DNA of 57,637 nt from a virus. The stretch covers positions 1-57,637 of IMG/VR virus record IMGVR_UViG_3300017605_000995; one strand, given 5' to 3'. Positions 3,020 to 53,834 of the stretch are shown here, piece by piece. Positions within the stretch are counted from its first letter, which is position 1, and each line of letters starts with the position of its first letter. A program made the translations under genes and the position numbers. Under the pieces are notes generated by a model that worked only from the letters and a program-made list of their open reading frames with translations, ran no database searches and was not told the origin of the DNA.

Positions 3020-4102
3020 ATGAAGATCCCCAAGAACTTCTACCAGCTCCTCAAGGCCGAGACCATCGAGGTCTTGTCCTGGTCGTCGCTGACCGGCGTG
3101 GTCAACGAGATCAAGAGCCCCAACAGCTTCCTTCAGCGCCTCATCTTCGGCTCGCACGAGTCGAAGGAGACGGAGAAGATGGAGCTGGGCATCTACCGCC
3201 GCGGTCGCGTCATGGCGCCGTTCGTGCGGAAGAACGGCATGGCGCTGGAGATGTCCGGCGGCAGCCAGGAATTCCAGATGCTCCGTCCCCCGAAGATCCG
3301 GGTGAAGACGCACCTGGAGCCCTCGGAGCTGATGGACAACCGTCGGCCCGGCTTCTCGATCTTCCCCGCTGCGGGCGAAGTCGCGACGGCCGCCGAGCAG
3401 GAAATCGCTCGCAAGGCCGCTGTCCTCTCGGACGGCATCGCCGAGTCGATCGAGTATCTCTGCGCCCAGGCCCTTCGTGGCCAGCTCTCCTACTCGGCAG
3501 ACGAGGAGGAAGTCTTCCAGGTCACGTTCCCTGTCCCGTCCGGCAACACCTACACGCTCACGACCAAGTGGGATGATGTCGATTCGCTGCCGAGCCAGGA
3601 CTTCATGAACGCCCAGCAGGTTGCCAGTGACGAAGTCGGCCTCGGCCTGACGGACGTCATCATGGGCAAGCTCGCCGCGCAGGCTTTCATGGCCAACGAG
3701 GAAGTCCGCTTCCTGCTGACGGCCCCCGCTCAGATGAACGCGGGCGCCTTGAACCTCGCGGCCCAGTTCCGCGACGACGGTGCAGTGCTGCTCGGTGAGT
3801 TCTGCGGTGTCCGCGTGTGGCGCTACGGCCGCACCACGACCCTGCCGGACGGCACGAGCTACCAGCTCATCGAGGACAAGAAGGTCCACTTCCTGGCCTT
3901 GTCGGCCGCTGCCGAGAACAAGATGTATTTCGGCCCGATCCACGACCTCGAAGCCCTCCAGGGCCGCCAGTTCGTGGGCGAGCGGTTCGCCAAGCAGTGG
4001 ATCCAGCCCGACCCGAGCGTCATGTGGATGCTCGTCGAGTCGAACCCGATCCCGTGGCCGCGCCGGCCCGGCTCGATGGTTCACGTCCAAGTCCTGGCGT
4101 GA
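3020..4102 (+). CDS. Major capsid protein, lambda gpE-like family
   Basis: Main shell subunit, 360 aa, the usual length for the gpE-like (Phage_cap_E) HK97-fold group. Supporting features are the N-terminal TGVVNEIKSPNSFLQRLIFG segment, the RPPKIRVK motif followed by a loop region, and a C-terminal MWMLVESNPIPWPRRPG stretch typical of gpE relatives. It directly follows the decoration gene in one operon. A strong inverted repeat follows the stop codon and may limit read-through into later genes. Confidence 0.88.
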   Translation: MKIPKNFYQLLKAETIEVLSWSSLTGVVNEIKSPNSFLQRLIFGSHESKETEKMELGIYRRGRVMAPFVRKNGMALEMSGGSQEFQMLRPPKIRVKTHLEPSELMDNRRPGFSIFPAAGEVATAAEQEIARKAAVLSDGIAESIEYLCAQALRGQLSYSADEEEVFQVTFPVPSGNTYTLTTKWDDVDSLPSQDFMNAQQVASDEVGLGLTDVIMGKLAAQAFMANEEVRFLLTAPAQMNAGALNLAAQFRDDGAVLLGEFCGVRVWRYGRTTTLPDGTSYQLIEDKKVHFLALSAAAENKMYFGPIHDLEALQGRQFVGERFAKQWIQPDPSVMWMLVESNPIPWPRRPGSMVHVQVLA

Positions 4103-7438: not shown

Positions 7439-10400
7439 TGGCGACCACGGACCAAGGCGGCCTGAACTGGAATCTCAACGTCCAGGACAACTTCACTGGT
7501 CCGCTCCAGCAATTCACGCGGCTCGTCACCGAGGCGCGTCAGGCCATCGCCACCTTCCGAGGGGCCGGCAACGCCTTCAATCAGTCGGTAGATCAGATGC
7601 GCGCCCTGGCCGATTTGACCAGGGCGCAGACCGCAGCTACTCGGCAGGCACGAAGTCAACAGTCGCAAGCCGAGCGCGAGGAGATTCAGGCGCAACGCGA
7701 ATTGATTGCCCAGGTCAAGGAACGCAATCGCCTGGAGAAGGAGCGCGGGGCAATCATCCGCGCGCAGCGGGCAGAGCAGGCCCAGGCAGCCCGGGCTTCC
7801 CTCGCGCTCGATGCGGCCGTCGCCAAGACGAAGGGCGAGGTCGCTGCCGCAACCAAGAAGGTCGGCGATGAGTCGGGGAAGACTGCACCCAAGGCCCGCA
7901 CGCTCGCCAACGAGTTCAAGGGGCTCCGGCAGGCGCTGCTCGGCGGCGGTGAGGCCGGTAACCGGCTGGTCTTCACGCTGCGCAACATCATCGGCGTCGG
8001 CGCCGGCCTCGTCTTCATCCAGCAGATCCAGCAGAGCTTCACGGGGCTCGTGCGCGCGGGCATCGAATTCAACCAGCAGGTGGACGACTCGACTGTCGGG
8101 ATCGCCGGCCTGCTGTCCGCTGTCGCCAACGTCCGGGATGCGCAGGGTGGGCTCGTCACGGGCGCGGCAGCCTTCGCAGCCACGTTCGATGTCGCCGTGG
8201 AACAGGTCGAGAAACTGCGGCAGGCGACGCTGCGCACGACCGCGACGTTCCAGCAGCTCTCCGATACGTTCCAGGTCGCCGTTGCTCCGGGCCTCAAGGC
8301 CGGGCTCAACATCGACCAAATCCGCGAGCTGGCGATCTCCGTCTCGCAAGCGGCCGGTGCCCTCGGGGTGCCGACGAATCAGCTCTCGGAAGAAATCCGC
8401 GCGCTGCTGACCGGCACGATCCAGGCCCGCACGACGCGCATCGCGACCGCGCTCGGCATCACGCCCGACGACATCCGCCGCGCCAAGAACGATGTCGGCG
8501 GCCTCGCGAAGTTCCTCGACGACCGCTTCCGCGCGTTCGAGATCGCAGGAGAGAAGGCGGCCAACACGTTCACCGGAACGTTCCGCCGCGCGCAGACGGC
8601 AATCGCTCTCTCGTCCGGTGAAGCCTCGCGCACCCTCTTCAACGAACTCCGGACCAGCTTCGAGGAAGTCTTCGATCTGTTCACGACGCGAACCGCATTC
8701 GGCGAGGTGCTCCCCGATCCGCGGGCAGTGCAGGCCCTCAAGACGATCTTCGATGGGATCGCGGATGCGGTGCGGTCATTTCGGTCGAACATCCAGCAGA
8801 TCCGCTTCGACGCGATCCTGGAAGCCGGAAAATTCCTCGGCGATATCTTCCGAGGGCTCGGGCAAGCTCTGTCGGGGTTCGTCATCGGGGCCGTCAATAC
8901 CTTCGCCCTGCTTGGCCGCGTCTTCCGTCAAATCTTCGGCCCTGGCTCCGACTTCACCCGGGTGGCCGTCATCCTTGGGGAGATCGTCACCCTGGTCGGT
9001 GTGCTCGGGGCAGCCTTCGGCGGGCTGCGCGTGGTCATCAGCCTCCTGGTGATTCCATTCGCGGCCATCGTCAAGTCCGCCGAGACCCTGGTCGCCGTGC
9101 TGCGAACGGCCGCCCTGGCGACGCCCTTCTTCCTCATGCTGGGCGCGATCGTCGCCGCCGGCCTGGGTATCAAGGATCTCATCAAGCTGGAGGAAGACCT
9201 GGAGCGGATCCGGCAGCGCTCCACGGCGGAAGCCCAGCTCTCGAAGGCAGCCATTCTTCAAGGACAGCTCGCCGAGGCGTTGAAGAACCGCGCCGAATTG
9301 CAGAAGGTCGTCAACGACGAAGAAGCGAAGCAAGGCACAGGCGGTGCCGGCATTGGCCTCTTTGGTTTTGGTAATCAGCTCCAACGGCATATCGTCCGCT
9401 TGCAGCAGATCGATGAACTGATCGCCAAGCTGAAGGAGCAGAAGAAGGCACAAGAGGCAGCAGACAAGGCGGACCCCACTGCGGGAGGCCCACCTCCGGA
9501 ATTGCCGGAGCCGGATCAATCGTCCTTCCTCCAGAAGGGAATCGACGCGGCGAAGGACGTCCTCAAGGCGATTCAGGACACTTTCAACGGGGCCGACCCG
9601 CTGACGCCTCCGCCGATCAAGAAGCCGGAGATCGATCCGAAGGATCTGCCGTTCAGCTTCGTGATGACGGTCACGCCCAAGCCCGAGCTGGGTCCGTTCG
9701 AGAAGGCCCTCCAGAAGATGGGCGATCTGCTTGAAGGCGAACTACGCCTGATGCAGACGGCGATCACGGAATTCAGCAACTTCGTCGCCGACTCGATCGT
9801 GGACGCCTTCGACCCGACGAACGACACGAGCTTCCAGGAGCGCTTCGCACGCTTCCTCCAATCGATCGCGAAGCAGATCATCGCGACCTTGACGCAAATC
9901 GCGATCTCGAAGTTGCTGCTCTCGATCAGCACCAGCGCGGCCGGCTCCGCGGTCGACGGCGGCCTCGTGGAGGGTTTCGCGGAAGGCGGCCCGGTGGGTC
10001 AGCCGGCACCTTCCCTCAGCCATATGGGCATCAAGGCGCCGCGCCCGAAGGGACTGCACCCCACCGACACGGTGCCCGCATGGTTGGCGCCGGGGGAATT
10101 CGTTCACCGGGCCTCCGCGGTCGCGCGTTACGGCGCCGACTTCATGCAGGCCCTCAACAAAGGGCTGGTGAACCCGGCCGAGCTGCGGGCCTTTGCCGGC
10201 ATGTCGCAGCGCCGCACCAGCGAGGCCCGTCGGATCCGCAAGATCCGCGGCTACGCTGATGGTGGCCTTGTCTCCCAGCAGCTCGCCGCGAACAATGCGG
10301 CCCTGGCCGCCCGCGCTGAGAGTCCGACCCAAACGGCCCCGACGCCCGCCTTCATCGTCGGAAACGATCAAGCCGTCGACCGCTTCCTGCATGGAGGCAA

Positions 10401-32816: not shown

Positions 32817-33322
32817 GACTTCCTCCGCTCCAGGACCGTCGCATCCCGACGGCCGACGAGGCCGTAGTTGCGCTTCGCTACCCGGCGCTCGGTGAAGGGT
32901 GCCTCGGGGTTGCCCGTGTTCCCGATTCGACGCCCGTCGTTCTGGCGTCGTTCCTGGCCCTTGCGTCGCTCGGTGGACACACGGCCGAACCACGCATTGC
33001 GGTCACCGCATTCCAACATGGCGACGAGGACCGAAGTGGACTGCTCCAGTTCCTTGCGGAACATCTCGCCACGTTCGGCGAGGGTGATGATGTCGGGAGC
33101 CTTCCCTTCGCGGGCAGCACCTTCGGCTTCGACGAGGGCGAAGTTCAGCTTGAGGTAGGCCTGCGAGGCCTCGCCGATCTCTTCCATGAGGATGGCAAGC
33201 CAGACAGGGAAGTCGTGATTCTGCTCACCCCACTTGGCGTCCTGACGGCTGCGCTCGGTGGTGATCTGGGAAATGATCGCCTTGAAGCGATCGACTTGGG
33301 ATTGGAGGGACTTCGGATTCAT
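32813..33322 (-). CDS. MazG-like nucleotide pyrophosphohydrolase
   Basis: 169 aa from ATG 33322. The segment ERSRQDAKWGEQNHDFPVWL, then AILMEEIGEASQAYLKLN, carries the E-E-x-x-E metal-binding pattern of MazG-like all-alpha NTP pyrophosphatases. In phages such enzymes hydrolyse NTPs or (p)ppGpp to keep the host in a growing state. The C-terminus is an unusual Arg-rich extension (RRKGQERRQNDGRR, LERRKS), perhaps nucleic-acid binding. The start codon is placed eight bases after a TACACT box. Confidence 0.78.
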   Translation of the reverse strand: MNPKSLQSQVDRFKAIISQITTERSRQDAKWGEQNHDFPVWLAILMEEIGEASQAYLKLNFALVEAEGAAREGKAPDIITLAERGEMFRKELEQSTSVLVAMLECGDRNAWFGRVSTERRKGQERRQNDGRRIGNTGNPEAPFTERRVAKRNYGLVGRRDATVLERRKS

Positions 33323-41757: not shown

Positions 41758-42372
41758 CTACTCGCAGCCCTTCTTGAGGGTGCCACCCTTGCTCCGTCCG
41801 GACCGCAGGAGCTTCAACTCCTCGACCCGGTCCGCCGCCTCCGCGTAGCGGTTCATCCAGGCCACCTCGCGGGCATGGGCGGCCTTCAGCTCCGAGTCCC
41901 GCTGCTGCACCTCGTTCACGAGTTGCGCCATACGCTGGGCGTCCTGGACCATCGGAGTGTTCTGGAGCGCCTCCAGTTGCTGGCGTAGGGCCTTGAGCTG
42001 TTGGTCGCGACCGGCGAGGATTCGCTGGAGCCGCTCGCGCTCCTCGGTCAAGGTCGCGTTCAGCTTCTCGTTCGAATCCAGTCGTTGCTGGGCGAGGGCC
42101 TTCCAGTCGTCGGCCTGCTTCATCCAGACGTCCCGCGCACGGCGAAGACGCTCCGCATCGGCGGCCGGGTCTTTCAGCTTGGCAACCTCGGCCACCAGCG
42201 CGGCGAGTCGTTGTTCCAGCGAATTGAGACGGTCCCGAATGCTGGTGTTCGTCTGTCCCTGTGTCTCGCTGAGGCGGTCGATCCGTCGACTCAGGGTATC
42301 GAGGTCGGGTTTGATGAGGGCAGCGAGTGCGGGTAGTGTCGTCTTGATCGTTCTGGTGGTCTTCTTGGTCAT
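41758..42372 (-). CDS. Coiled-coil protein
   Basis: 204 aa from ATG 42372 (MTKKTTRTIKTTLPALAALI). An upstream Met at 42390 is excluded because the promoter/hairpin 42373-42402 covers it. About residues 30-190 are heptad-rich coiled coil (LDTLSRRIDRLSETQGQTNT; ERLQRILAGRDQQLKALRQQ). It ends with a basic tail. Possible roles are a structural bridge, an exclusion factor or a DNA-organising protein; none is shown by the sequence. Confidence 0.65.
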   Translation of the reverse strand: MTKKTTRTIKTTLPALAALIKPDLDTLSRRIDRLSETQGQTNTSIRDRLNSLEQRLAALVAEVAKLKDPAADAERLRRARDVWMKQADDWKALAQQRLDSNEKLNATLTEERERLQRILAGRDQQLKALRQQLEALQNTPMVQDAQRMAQLVNEVQQRDSELKAAHAREVAWMNRYAEAADRVEELKLLRSGRSKGGTLKKGCE

Positions 42373-42402
42373 GGTCCTGGAGTCTAACACGACTCCAGGA
42401 CC
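42373..42402 (-). promoter_or_regulatory. Promoter and perfect 12-bp inverted repeat at the coiled-coil gene start
   Basis: GGTCCTGGAGTC (42373-42384) and GACTCCAGGACC (42391-42402) flank a 6-base loop. On the minus strand the TAGACT box (42386-42381) lies in the loop/right arm, and the ATG begins one base after the repeat. A bound repressor would cover -10 box and start at once. Confidence 0.65.
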
Positions 42403-43179: not shown

Positions 43180-43328
43180 TCCACCGCGATATCGAGATCC
43201 AAGAAATCCTCGCCGTGCCTGTCCGCAACGGTCAGCTCATCCACTCGGAGAGAATTGTGCTGGACCGACAGGTCATAGTGGTCGTGACGGACACGACAGC
43301 AGACGACGAATTGATGGCCGAGTCCTGA
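43176..43328 (+). CDS. Very small protein running into the iterons
   Basis: 50 aa, GTG start at 43176 (GTGA overlap with the previous gene). The protein is beta-rich and acidic (MIHRDIEIQEILAVPVRNGQ ... DDELMAES). The end of the gene carries the first GAGTCC repeat, so coding and repeat sequence overlap. Function unknown. Confidence 0.5.
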   Translation: MIHRDIEIQEILAVPVRNGQLIHSERIVLDRQVIVVVTDTTADDELMAES

Positions 43329-43453
43329 ATTCGAGTCCTAAAGTCCAGTCCCGAACGGACCGATACAATTCGATCCGTATGCGAACGGACTATCGATGGC
43401 CGAGTCCCAAAATCGAGTCCTGAATTCGAGTCCCAGATTCGAGTCCCAGAAAA
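43320..43453. repeat. 13-bp iterons (about seven copies in two groups), candidate replication origin
   Basis: Units of the form GAGTCCYRRAWTC occur at 43320, 43333, a degenerate 43346 and 43402, 43415, 43428, 43441, exactly 13 bases apart in each group. The 20-mer CGAGTCCTGAATTCGAGTCC occurs twice (43319-43338 and 43414-43433). The groups are separated by about 45 bases that hold two GAACGGAC copies (43353, 43383). Regular 13-base spacing with AT-rich centres is typical of iterons bound by initiator proteins. Primase-helicase genes lie to the left. Confidence 0.7.
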
Positions 43454-43655
43454 CAGTCACGATTTGCGGGAGGGAGCGCGGGCCCGGGCTCGCGCCGGCC
43501 GGAGCGCGGCCGGCCTGACAAACTGTCACTGCCAAAATGGCAGTCTCAAAATGAGACACTGCCAAAAAGACAGCCACCTGACAGAATGACAGGTGTCTCG
43601 GACTGAGACGATCCGGCGTGCCAACCGGCCGGTAGGCATGCGAGGAAATTCTCCC
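43329..43655. other. Gene-free control region (about 330 bp)
   Basis: Between the 50-residue gene and the cassette end. It contains the iterons (to 43453), a G+C-rich stretch with GGGCCC and CGCGCCGGCC-type repeats (43480-43515), and the palindrome array. I see no protein-coding frame with a good start. Confidence 0.6.
43516..43609. promoter_or_regulatory. Array of short palindromes, candidate operators
   Basis: At least five dyads with 3-9-base centres: TGACA-AAC-TGTCA (43516-43528), ACTGCCA-AAA-TGGCAGT (43528-43544), GTCTCA-AAA-TGAGAC (43543-43557), CACCTG ... CAGGTG (43575-43595), GTCTC-GGACT-GAGAC (43595-43609), plus a degenerate CTGCCAAAAAGACAG. The CTGCCA/TGGCAG dyad recurs at 48797-48811 beyond the cassette. 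They lie downstream of the iterons and before the end of the minus-strand cassette. Confidence 0.7.
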
Positions 43656-48742: not shown

Positions 48743-48796
48743 CACTGTAACGCCCATACCAAGGGAGCTATAGAAGCGCGCACGTCTAGCGGTCGA

Positions 48797-48811: not shown

Positions 48812-48848
48812 GTCGTGCGTTTCGTTGGATGCTGTCGTCAGGAACCTA

Positions 48849-49094
48849 CCATACCATGGGCCATACAACACTACAACATAACAACGTCTAGTCTAATGAG
48901 GGGATAGGGAAAGGCCAGTATGGAGGCTAGTATAGGGGCTGCGTACTGGCGGGGCCGCTTTTTTGTCGTTTCCGATGTATCCCCCATGGTATGGTCATTG
49001 TGCGACTAACAAAAGTGCGTGTCCCCCATGGTATGGGCTAGTGTGCTATATCCCCCATGGTATGGGCTAGTGTGCTATATCCCCCATGGTATGG
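48849..49094. repeat. Five CCCAT-GGT-ATGGG-type dyads (operators or initiator sites)
   Basis: CCCCCATGGTATGG occurs at 48981, 49023, 49052 and 49081, the last three 29 bases apart, and an inverted copy CCATACCATGGG at 48849-48860. Three copies contain the full CCCAT-GGT-ATGGG dyad. The 29-base unit includes GTGCTATAT, a good -10 box. The last copy covers the ATG of the HTH gene at 49086. Confidence 0.85.
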
Positions 49095-49682
49095 GATGTC
49101 TCAAAGTGGGACGAGGTGGCTACGTCCCGCTTTGAGAAAAAATATACCTCTGGTGCCCTCGCCAAAATTTTCGCCAAACCGTATATCACAACTTTCCTGA
49201 GAAACTTCCATCCTGCTCCTCGTGCATGTGCTACCTTTCTGCATATGGCACGTTCCCGCAACTGGTCGATCGAGGACACGCTCGAAGTCCTCATCCGTCA
49301 CTCCACCTTCCACCAGAGCTACGCCGAGATCGCCCGAGCGATGTCGAGGCTCTCCTACCAACAGGTCCGCAACTTCCTCTTGGAGAATCAGCTCCAAGAA
49401 AACCCGCCTGCCGAGTGGCAGCAGAAGATGCAGGCAGAAATCACCGATCGGATCAGGGGTGAAATCGCGCAGAATATCGTCGATTCCGTCTCCACCGGAC
49501 AGGCCCCGGTAAAACCACCCCGCCGAAGAGTATTTGTAGTGCTCCCACCGGAGCTTCGAATCTCTTACAACGAGGAGGTCGAGGGCTGCATCCGCGAAGT
49601 GAAGAAGGCAGCGGCCCAATTTGGGCTTTCGGCGCGAAGGTTTTTGCACGATTGCATCACCCATCCGGATTCCGTGGGGTAA
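49086..49682 (+). CDS. HTH-like regulator, probably leaderless and autoregulated
   Basis: 198 aa. The segment SYAEIARAMSRLSYQQVRNF (residues about 79-98) fits a helix-turn-helix, preceded by WSIEDTLEVLIRHSTFH. The remainder is helical with a basic middle (KPPRRRVFVVLPPELRISYN). The ATG at 49086 is inside the fourth CCCAT-GGT-ATGGG repeat and only five bases after CTATAT, so the mRNA would start at or next to the ATG. A protein bound at its own start would shut itself off, like a phage repressor. No match to a named repressor family. Confidence 0.68.
   Translation: MVWDVSKWDEVATSRFEKKYTSGALAKIFAKPYITTFLRNFHPAPRACATFLHMARSRNWSIEDTLEVLIRHSTFHQSYAEIARAMSRLSYQQVRNFLLENQLQENPPAEWQQKMQAEITDRIRGEIAQNIVDSVSTGQAPVKPPRRRVFVVLPPELRISYNEEVEGCIREVKKAAAQFGLSARRFLHDCITHPDSVG
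49100..49136 (+). promoter_or_regulatory. 14-bp hairpin within the first codons of the HTH gene
   Basis: CTCAAAGTGGGACG and CGTCCCGCTTTGAG pair over 14 bp with one G-U in RNA and a 9-base loop, followed by six A's. It lies 14 bases after the ATG, where it could slow or control a leaderless start. Confidence 0.65.
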
Positions 49683-51058: not shown

Positions 51059-51430
51059 ATGCCCTACATCTCCCGAGAAGACCGCGAAGTCCTCCAGGAC
51101 TTCACTCACACCCCCGCCAACGCGGGACAGCTCAACTTCCTCGTCACCACTCTGGTCGACGACTACATCTCCGCTCGCGGACTCTCCTACACCGTCCTCA
51201 ACGAGGCCATCGGCGTCCTGGAGTGCGCGAAGCTGGAACTCTACCGCCGCCTCGCCGCGCCCTACGAGACGATCAAGATGGCGCAGAACGGCGACGTCTA
51301 CAAGACCCAGGTCCCGGGATTCACGAAACCTCTGACTCCCTATCAGAGGATCCCGCCGCGGGAGACTCCGCCCGCGAATCAGCCACCTCCGCCTCCCGCC
51401 CCAGAATCCGAAGCCAGCCCGCCGAAGTAA
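51059..51430 (+). CDS. DUF6899-like conserved phage protein
   Basis: 123 aa (MPYISREDREVLQDFTHTPA). It has the conserved pattern ISREDR ... GQLNFLVTTLVDDYI ... GLSYTVLNEAIGVLECAKLE ... YRR ... GDVY, recurring in many phages as a small unassigned protein. A Pro-rich C-terminus follows. It overlaps the divergent/antisense gene (51321-51722) over 110 bases at its 3' end. Confidence 0.72.
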   Translation: MPYISREDREVLQDFTHTPANAGQLNFLVTTLVDDYISARGLSYTVLNEAIGVLECAKLELYRRLAAPYETIKMAQNGDVYKTQVPGFTKPLTPYQRIPPRETPPANQPPPPPAPESEASPPK

Positions 51431-51722
51431 TCTTCGCCCCGAGCACGAAGAACTCCCCGCCCTGAAATTGGAGCGGCCAGAAGACCACTCCTTCCAGGGC
51501 GAGCCTCTCAGCGATCCGGGCCTCCAGCCTCTCCGAGAACTTCGGATCGATGGCTAGATCAGCCCATGAGACCAATTCCCCGTCGGCCCAACCCGACGGC
51601 CCCTGCTGGACGAACGTGACATCCTTCAGCAGCAACGCCTGGGCGTGACCGACCCGGCGCCCGTCGGCGGCCTGAACAGTCCATCTGTGGCGGTTATGGT
51701 CCCTATTGATCCGGACTCGCAT
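51321..51722 (-). CDS. Small hypothetical protein divergent from the terminase unit
   Basis: 133 aa (MRVRINRDHNRHRWTVQAAD). Beta-rich N-terminus and a helical middle (FSERLEARIAERLALEGVVF). Its own promoter box TAGCAT (51734-51729) is six bases before the ATG in the shared palindrome, which strongly supports the gene. It ends antisense to the DUF6899-like gene. No family recognised. Confidence 0.62.
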   Translation of the reverse strand: MRVRINRDHNRHRWTVQAADGRRVGHAQALLLKDVTFVQQGPSGWADGELVSWADLAIDPKFSERLEARIAERLALEGVVFWPLQFQGGEFFVLGAKITSAGWLRILGREAEVADSRAESPAAGSSDRESEVS

Positions 51723-51739
51723 GGTAGAATGCTACCATG
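51720..51739. promoter_or_regulatory. 20-bp palindrome with two divergent leaderless promoters
   Basis: CATGGTAG-AATG-CTACCATG. Plus strand: TAGAAT (51725-51730), six bases, ATG 51737. Minus strand: TAGCAT (51734-51729), six bases, ATG 51722. Both start codons are the palindrome ends, so the element is simultaneously an operator-like dyad, two -10 boxes and two start codons. Confidence 0.82.
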
Positions 51740-52318
51740 CTCCCCCCGGACAGTTACTTCGCCGACCCTGACTTCCAGCGGGTCGAGCCCTACTTTCACG
51801 ACTGGGTGGCCCAAGGCCAGGGCCGGAACGCGGCCTGGGTCGCCGGCCGCGCCGGCCTCCCCATCGCCACCGTCGGCCGCGCCATGGTCGCCGGAATGTG
51901 GCTCCAGCGGCTCCGGGCGATCGACAAGGATGCGGCCACGCTGACCCACAAGAAGCTCGTGGGCGACGTCTCAGGGCTCAACGAGGCCGACGTGGCCATC
52001 TTGTCCGAGGCGATCGACCTCGCCTGGGCGAAGCTCAAGGCCGCGATCGAGGCCGATCAGGTCCCGCCGGCCCTACTCTGGAAGATCGTGGACTCGGGCA
52101 TCGAGACTCGCGCGGAGCGGCTGGGCATGGGCCAGGGAGGGGAAGGTGACATCGTCCGACGGATGCAGAAGGTGCTGGAGGCAGCCAGCTCGCAGGAGGC
52201 CAAGCCCTTTGTGCTGGACCCTCTGAAGCTGGAGTCACCGCCGGATCTGCCGGCGATGCCTGGGATGACGAGCGATGAAGACGCACCACCCGAGGAAGGC
52301 GATGGTCAGGACGATTGA
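51737..52318 (+). CDS. Terminase small subunit (putative)
   Basis: 193 aa. A HTH-like N-terminal region (YFHDWVAQGQGRNAAWVAGR, then AGLPIATVGRAMVAGMW) and helical oligomerisation segment (LNEADVAILSEAIDLAWAKL) fit a DNA-recognising small subunit. It is immediately upstream of, and overlaps, the large subunit. Start is fixed by the TAGAAT box six bases upstream. The acidic C-terminus would interact with the motor. Family match is by context. Confidence 0.72.
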   Translation: MLPPDSYFADPDFQRVEPYFHDWVAQGQGRNAAWVAGRAGLPIATVGRAMVAGMWLQRLRAIDKDAATLTHKKLVGDVSGLNEADVAILSEAIDLAWAKLKAAIEADQVPPALLWKIVDSGIETRAERLGMGQGGEGDIVRRMQKVLEAASSQEAKPFVLDPLKLESPPDLPAMPGMTSDEDAPPEEGDGQDD

Positions 52319-53834
52319 TAAAAGGGCTCTCTTCAAGCAGCTCAACTATATCCCCCATCCGGGACAGGAGCAAATTCATGCCGCGCTTTCGATGCCCGGC
52401 ATCGACTATGTTCTCGGGCTCTGCGGCACGCGCTTCGGCAAGACCTGGGCAGCGGCCTACGAGATGGTCTACCACGCGATGCTCCCGCGCGCCGAGTTCC
52501 TCGGCTGGTGTGTGGCCCCGCAGCGAGCACTCGCCGACATCGTTTTCGATCAGGTCAGTCGCCTGATCCACGAGATCCATGGCAACAACGTCCGCTTCGA
52601 CCGGAACGAAGGTATCCTCGAATTCAAGAACTTCGGCGGCGGGCGCTCGCGCGTGATGCGGAAGTCCTGTGACGGCGCGGAGGGCAAGGGCAAGCTGGCC
52701 GGTGCGGGCGTCGACTTCATGGTGATCGACGAGGCCAGCTCCCCGACGATCAAGGACGCCATCTGGGTGTCGGAGTTGAGCACGCGCCTGAACGCGGGCT
52801 CGAAGCTGCTCGCGATCTCCACTCCCCGCGGCCAGCGCGGCTGGTTCATCCACCTCTACCGGCAGGCGCAGCGGGCCGGGTCATCGAATCGCACTATCGC
52901 GATCAACCTTCCGAGCTGGACGAACACCTACCGCTTCCCGGGCGGGTGGGAGAACGAGGAAATTCAGGCGCACTACCACCGCAAACCCCTGCGCGACTTC
53001 TTGCAGGAATACGGCGCGAAGCCGATGTCCGCCGAGGGCGCCTTCTTCGATCCAGAGATCGTCGACCCGAACTGCGTCATCGAAGAGTGGGAGGAGCCGA
53101 TCGCCGCCGGGGAATATGCATCGGGCCTCGACCTCGGCCTGAAGCGCGACAGCTCGATCCACACGATCGTGCGGGCGCCGCTCGGCTTCAAGAATTCCGA
53201 CCCCGCGGCGAAGGTCGTCTTCGTGCGGCGGATGCATCGCATGCCGGTGGAGGAGCAGCTCGAACTCGTTCTCCGGGACCAGGAGCGCTACGGAATTCAG
53301 AGCATCTACACGGACGGCACCGGGATCGGCGAACCGATCATCCAGCAGGCGAAGAACATGGGCATCTACGTGCGCTCAGTGGTCTTCACGAACGCCAGCA
53401 AGATGAAGATGCTCACGAACCTCTGGGGCCTGCTCCAGCAAGGGAAGCTGCGGCTGCCGAGCGCGCAGCTCTGCCCGACGCTGCGCGATCAGCTCCTGAC
53501 GTTCGCCTGGGCGAAGAACGGGAAAACCGCGAGCGCCCCGGACGGCTTCCACGACGACTACGTCTGCTCCCTCGCGCTCGCGGGCAAGTTCTTCCCGGCG
53601 ATCATGTCGGTCGGGGAGGGCCAGAGCTTCCACGTCAACAAGCCCCAGGGCGAGCGCCCCGCGCCGCCGAAGACCCAACCGAAGCCCGAGGAGCCGATGT
53701 TGAAGGTCCGCTCGATCAAGACGGTGAAGACCGAGGAAGAGGTCCGGGCCTTCACGACGGGCCGACCGCGGCGTCAGGAGGGCGGCGGCGGGAAACTTCG
53801 CTGGGGCAATGACGTAGTCGGCGGCGGGTGGTAG
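52302..53834 (+). CDS. terL: Terminase large subunit
   Basis: 510 aa from ATG 52302 (ribosome site GAGGAAGG); an in-frame ATG at 52275 would add nine residues. It is the packaging ATPase and nuclease. Walker A is GTRFGKT (about residue 42-48), Walker B FMVIDEAS (about 145) and the coupling motif STPRGQ. The nuclease domain has GLDLGLKRD, followed by TDGTGIGEP and FHDDYV. The Pro/Lys-rich end (PAPPKTQPKPEEP) is a disordered tail. Overlaps the small subunit by 17 bases. Confidence 0.93.
   Translation: MVRTIDKRALFKQLNYIPHPGQEQIHAALSMPGIDYVLGLCGTRFGKTWAAAYEMVYHAMLPRAEFLGWCVAPQRALADIVFDQVSRLIHEIHGNNVRFDRNEGILEFKNFGGGRSRVMRKSCDGAEGKGKLAGAGVDFMVIDEASSPTIKDAIWVSELSTRLNAGSKLLAISTPRGQRGWFIHLYRQAQRAGSSNRTIAINLPSWTNTYRFPGGWENEEIQAHYHRKPLRDFLQEYGAKPMSAEGAFFDPEIVDPNCVIEEWEEPIAAGEYASGLDLGLKRDSSIHTIVRAPLGFKNSDPAAKVVFVRRMHRMPVEEQLELVLRDQERYGIQSIYTDGTGIGEPIIQQAKNMGIYVRSVVFTNASKMKMLTNLWGLLQQGKLRLPSAQLCPTLRDQLLTFAWAKNGKTASAPDGFHDDYVCSLALAGKFFPAIMSVGEGQSFHVNKPQGERPAPPKTQPKPEEPMLKVRSIKTVKTEEEVRAFTTGRPRRQEGGGGKLRWGNDVVGGGW

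Follow-up and report, generated by a model that had tools for sequence, protein, structure and literature searches.

In E. coli, it is established that symmetric −10 elements drive divergent transcription (PMC12825309, where it cites Warman, Grainger and colleagues, Nat Microbiol 2021). In these bidirectional promoters, pseudo-symmetric −10 elements on opposite strands overlap between the divergent transcription starts, which are most commonly 18, 10, or 23 bp apart, with small variations possible, and one polymerase is accommodated at a time (PMC12825309). At basal levels, activity is usually insufficient for the two directions to compete, and strong activation one way can repress the other (PMC12825309). 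The leaderless genes of bacteria are the other close comparison. They carry a TANNNT signal whose first T lies about 12 bp before the start codon (PMC3160421), a TANNNT-type −12 signal is likewise found in leaderless genes of Deinococcus (PMC12340547), and these genes, together with those described in Mycobacterium (PMC3898074), have the start-codon purine at +1 and no Shine-Dalgarno sequence. Here we describe a 14-bp interval between two divergent phage genes that is likely to be a bidirectional promoter with overlapping −10 boxes, yielding two leaderless or near-leaderless mRNAs, in which a conspicuous palindrome is mainly a by-product of packing. The interval lies in a 57.6-kb IMG/VR virus record that was analyzed over its whole length (the window).

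Results

The sequence CATGGTAGAATGCTACCATG occupies exactly positions 51720-51739 of the window and is unique, with no other match within three mismatches in the window or the record (0.06 expected from shuffles). It is a 20-bp inverted repeat made of two back-to-back promoter/start-codon units. On the plus strand, the −10 box TAGAAT (51725-51730) is followed by the six bases GCTACC and by the ATG at 51737, the first codon of a 193-aa ORF; on the minus strand, TAGCAT (51734-51729) is followed by the six bases TCTACC and by the ATG at 51722, the first codon of a 133-aa ORF. The whole gap between the two divergent start codons (51737-51739 on the plus strand and 51720-51722 on the minus strand) is 14 bp. 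The arms of the palindrome are 8 bp long around the center AATG, or 9 bp when the pair G51719-C51740 is added. A first-pass annotation of this DNA had singled out the 20-mer with its two boxes, six-base spacings, and two ATGs, and all of these are confirmed on both strands.

The plus-strand ORF (51737-52318) is a terminase small subunit-like gene, terS, placed directly before the terminase large subunit gene terL (52275-53834, plus strand; Pfam Terminase_6N, PHROG 2). "Terminase small subunit," the name used in the first-pass annotation, is a fair one for a gene that adjoins terL and whose product has a weak PHROG match (E 0.08) and a low-confidence, all-helical structure model. The minus-strand ORF (51321-51722) is an uncharacterized conserved phage gene; its 133-aa product matched no Pfam or PHROG family and gave a low-confidence, β-rich model without a helix-turn-helix. 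Searches of IMG/VR and named phages with TerS and the leftward protein returned only one contig, IMGVR_UViG_3300044699_000148 (hereafter L002), under two locus numbers, and this is the sole close relative found. A search of GTDB genomes with terL gave no match, and its relatives among named phages (Thermus, Tunturiibacter, Microbacterium, and enteric phages) are distant, all below 30% identity among the matches listed, so that the host is not fixed by terL. The 3′ end of the leftward gene overlaps a convergent rightward DUF6899 gene (51059-51430) tail to tail by 110 bp (51321-51430); in L002, two other small predicted genes stand between them instead.

Each −10 box opens with a TAG that is in frame with its own ATG and four codons before it (51725-51727 on the plus strand and 51734-51732 on the minus strand), and neither gene can therefore start further upstream. 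Aligned with L002, TerS is conserved from its first methionine, and the leftward protein is conserved from its first residues once the L002 ATG at 4001 is taken as the start. Third codon positions of the two genes diverge most from L002 (0.53 and 0.49, against 0.21-0.34 at positions 1 and 2). Judged by these comparisons, both ORFs are real genes and both ATGs are real starts.

The first T of the TANNNT motif lies exactly 12 bases before the ATG on both strands (51725 and 51734). The six-base spacing had been proposed as the right placement for leaderless transcription, and it does match the published signal, with its first T at about −12 (PMC3160421). The boxes on opposite strands overlap by 2 bp (51729-51730). 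Both are extended −10 elements, TGG-TAGAAT (TGG at 51722-51724) and TGG-TAGCAT (TGG at 51735-51737), in which the T of each TG falls within the complement of the opposite start codon and the G complements the base preceding that codon. The predicted transcription starts are A51737 for terS and A51722 for the leftward gene, the first base of either start codon; if so placed, the two +1 positions are 15 bp apart, a value that is not one of the commonest E. coli separations given above. No Shine-Dalgarno sequence was found in reach of either ATG (20 nt upstream, both strands); the minus strand does have GGGGGGAG, but at about 20 nt from the ATG, too far for a Shine-Dalgarno interaction. No convincing −35 element was found for either promoter.

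In L002 the divergent gene order is the same, with amino acid identities of 67% for the leftward protein, 55% for TerS, and 62% for TerL. The interval between the L002 starts is 25 bp, GGTAATGGAGTATACTTCCCACACC, and contains AGTATACT, which reads TATACT on both strands (TATACT/AGTATA) at 8 and 9 nt from the ATGs. L002 thus keeps both genes, both start codons, the ACC before each ATG, and a two-way −10, and what remains of the dyad is only CATGGT...ACCATG, mostly start codon and ACC context. The expectation that relatives would conserve the palindrome and the six-base spacings did not hold, as L002 retains the genes and loses both. Because its spacings are 8 and 9 nt, the L002 mRNAs may, on this sequence, carry leaders of 2-3 nt. 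L002 being the only relative found, these statements on conservation rest on one relative.

Start regions across the phage were surveyed with simple purpose-made gene calls and Shine-Dalgarno scoring, applied to this phage and the L002 contig. Shine-Dalgarno words are rarer in the first genes of transcription units (6/36) than in internal genes (18/39; p = 0.007). ACC directly precedes the ATG in 7 of 36 first genes, compared with 48 of 2163 background ATGs (2.2%; p = 2e-5), and the enrichment persists when the present site is left out (5/34, p = 0.001). TANNNT was found 10-18 bp upstream of 12 called starts, where about 2.5 were expected; other likely starts of this type are at 33322(−), 42372(−), and 53845(+).

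The phage carries several further repeats. A cluster at 48970-49100 comprises three full copies and a partial copy of TCCCCCATGGTATGGG around two possible divergent starts, two of the copies forming a perfect 29-bp tandem with CTAGTGTGCTATA, and inverted copies of TCCCCCATGGTATGGG are also present at 48752-48773 and 48844-48871. From its sequence, the cluster looks like a repeated promoter/operator or an origin array. At 42363-42402, a perfect 12-bp inverted repeat, GGTCCTGGAGTC-GTGTTA-GACTCCAGGACC, abuts the ATG of the leftward gene 41758-42372 and overlaps a TAGACT box; a partly similar sequence is found at position 8910 of locus L013. An array of 13-bp tandem units, CGAGTCC(C/T)NAANN, with at least six units in two blocks, occupies 43310-43465 within a poorly coding stretch of about 43.3-49 kb.

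The geometry of the site recurs in cellular genomes. The pattern CATGGTANNATNNTACCATG matched 82 stretches among 84,980 GTDB species genomes, and 81 sites in 80 loci were examined. ORFs of at least 100 codons run in both directions from both ATGs at 7 of the 81 pattern sites and at none of 190 other CAT-N14-ATG sites taken from the same loci as controls (p = 2e-4). These seven sites represent five independent gene pairs, some being the same pair in two species. The exact pattern separates murC and tsaE in two Saccharibacteria, a tRNA nucleotidyltransferase gene and an AP-endonuclease-like gene in Peregrinibacteria, a chlorite dismutase-like gene and an Rce1-like protease gene in ANGP1 (70% GC), and a pair including an O-methyltransferase gene in two Gastranaerophilales; one further pair is from Saccharibacteria. 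Among the shorter or truncated cases are relA|yggU and a pairing of lepB with the gene for a small membrane protein, and the flanking proteins at the GTDB sites belong mostly to known families.

Variants of these pairs separate the geometry from the symmetry. A third murC|tsaE pair from Saccharibacteria, CATGGTATAATTATACAATG, keeps the geometry with one outer base pair broken, and a fourth has a longer, different interval. In one lepB pair (L189, CATGCTATGATGATAATATG), the geometry is intact and the palindrome is gone; the proteins encoded on either side are homologous to those of a second lepB locus, L082. The −10/ATG arrangement therefore recurs, and the palindrome is dispensable to it. The lepB|small membrane protein loci, L082 (3265-3986) and L189 (1201-2048), are a conserved divergent pair from two Patescibacteria and have starts 14 bp apart with −10 boxes on both strands, which makes this pair a good cellular test case for such a promoter design.

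The exact double-unit pattern was found in 63 IMG/VR stretches, mostly redundant AT-rich coding sequence, none of which has two real divergent genes; one stretch (L076) is a one-sided case. With a relaxed pattern, the phylum sampled around an Acidobacteria-titled genome, that central genome excluded, gave 11 matches against 0 for a reversed control, with no clear divergent pairs, and a Patescibacteria sample gave a slight excess (20 against 15 for the reversed control). In two Acidobacteria-titled genomes, at L118 (3922-3941) and L133 (2570-2589), a single short gene begins at the exact pattern and lacks a clear divergent partner; the L118 gene resembles, by eye, a VapB-type antitoxin.

Nearly all of the symmetry can be assigned to the two units. 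Three of the eight arm pairs are start codons, three are ACC context (one of them doubling as the T of TANNNT), and one is the A of TA; G51727-C51732 is the only pair that two TANNNT...ACC-ATG units leave unexplained. On this sequence decomposition, the palindrome is probably for the most part a consequence of packing two promoter/start units together, not an operator in its own right.

By analogy with the E. coli bidirectional promoters, host RNA polymerase would bind the 14-bp core in either orientation, and each extended −10 would set the transcription start about 7 bp downstream, at or next to the A of the ATG. Both terS and the leftward 133-aa gene would then be transcribed as leaderless or near-leaderless mRNAs devoid of a Shine-Dalgarno sequence, which the host presumably uses. 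Because polymerase could not occupy both orientations at once, strong firing one way would occlude the other. If the E. coli rule applies here, the leftward gene would be turned down when terS is activated late, or terS when the leftward gene is activated. The start sites, leaderless translation, and occlusion are what we infer from this arrangement. Two divergent leaderless promoters had been proposed in the first-pass annotation; of that proposal, the shared 14-bp promoter pair stands as the best reading, given the −12 boxes, the Shine-Dalgarno and TANNNT statistics of the phage, and the recurrence elsewhere, and its conserved dyad and spacings and its protein-bound dyad are not supported.

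Four other accounts of the site were weighed. TANNNT is a short motif that may match by chance, and upstream transcription could in principle reach terS, which would then be translated from longer transcripts begun elsewhere with no promoter at the site. We consider this unlikely: a genome of 64% GC makes two boxes exactly at −12 improbable (from base composition, about 0.6% for each), L002 has a two-way TATACT at the same place, neither side has a Shine-Dalgarno sequence, and the lone leftward gene needs a promoter of its own. Longer transcripts enter differently into an RNA switch, in which read-through RNA would fold the dyad into a hairpin hiding the AUG and only AUG-starting mRNAs would be translated. 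The 20-mer has predicted folding energies of −9.9 (plus strand) and −9.1 kcal/mol (minus strand), and a 91-nt read-through RNA folds at −36.6 kcal/mol (shuffles, −21.8 kcal/mol; z = −4.8) and holds the AUG within a 9-bp stem. From this modeling, a hairpin that blocks translation of longer transcripts is a real possibility. However, such a hairpin is unavoidable wherever ACC-ATG/−10 units stand back to back, the matching stretch of L002 shows no more stable folding than shuffled sequence (z −0.9 and −0.5), and the read-through RNA is itself putative; we regard a switch as quite an improbable account of the site. An outer stem, TCCGG...CCGGA, around the dyad was a further candidate RNA element and was dropped, L002 having no comparable folding.

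A dimeric repressor of phage or host origin, possibly TerS or the leftward product, could instead cover both −10 boxes and silence both genes. Arms of 8-9 bp that sit on both boxes suit a dimer site, and there are other dyads at starts in this phage, for example the one abutting the start of 41758-42372(−). Against this, the dyad is not kept in the one relative, its arms owe only G51727-C51732 to anything beyond the two units, and like sequence is found in several bacterial groups, where it separates unrelated housekeeping genes. The site is also single-copy in the genome, on which ground a multi-copy operator was rejected. The neighbors of the dyad have no match to a regulator family (Pfam, PHROG), and their structure models are of low confidence, that of the leftward protein lacking a helix-turn-helix. 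The proposal that a protein bound to the dyad blocks both genes is accordingly not upheld for a single-copy site with no regulator identified beside it and with its symmetry nearly all accounted for; a dedicated operator there is possible, at a probability that we put low. The adjoining terS raises one more possibility, that the dyad belongs to a pac or cos site recognized by TerS. Such sites are often near terS, and pac lies near or in terS in SPP1 and P22. This would leave two exact −12 boxes and the cellular recurrence of the geometry unexplained, and the dyad is not conserved in L002; we consider this reading very improbable.

Discussion

The bidirectional leaderless promoter that we favor at this site carries a caution: a palindrome may lie between divergent starts and yet not be an operator. 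It also raises the tentative and rather speculative idea that leaderless-prone lineages repeatedly use zero-leader bidirectional promoters as a minimal form of divergent control, in which occupancy alone would make two genes compete with no regulator. If that were true, packaging, through terS, would be set against a conserved leftward gene in this phage. A defined 20-bp sequence allows testing of whether polymerase orientation alone couples two genes, and further examples may be sought where the pairs recur, in Saccharibacteria, other Patescibacteria, and Gastranaerophilales. The leaderless late promoters of P23-45 were considered as a precedent and not used as evidence.

Several known elements resemble the site in part. 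The Start-Associated Sequences of cluster K mycobacteriophages are conserved elements that likewise hug phage start codons, but they are many-copy and asymmetric (GGGATAGGAGCCC), some with upstream 17-bp inverted repeats (PMC3203893). Identity with them was rejected, as this phage has no repeated GGGATAGGAGCCC-like element and its single-copy site differs in sequence. The 17-bp dyad repeats of cluster O mycobacteriophages are short inverted repeats too, and many lie between genes, but they are present in more than 30 invariant copies per genome and are not tied to starts (PMC4351075). In divergent restriction-modification systems such as EcoRV, overlapping divergent core promoters of CR and M couple two genes as they may here, but under the control of C protein and with a C transcript that is not leaderless (PMC5333194).

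Leaderless mRNAs and symmetric two-way promoters are each known; we found no description in the open-licence literature of their combination in a promoter that fills the whole interval between two leaderless starts. The site shares the −12 TANNNT, the start-codon purine at the predicted +1, and the lack of a Shine-Dalgarno sequence with known leaderless genes, and differs from them in placing two such starts back to back with overlapping −10 boxes. It shares overlapping opposite-strand −10 boxes with the E. coli bidirectional promoters, and unlike them its predicted +1 positions coincide with the start codons, which would leave no 5′ UTRs and a gap that is promoter only. Two known ideas would thus be joined in the smallest divergent control region that we identified, 14 bp between two start codons.
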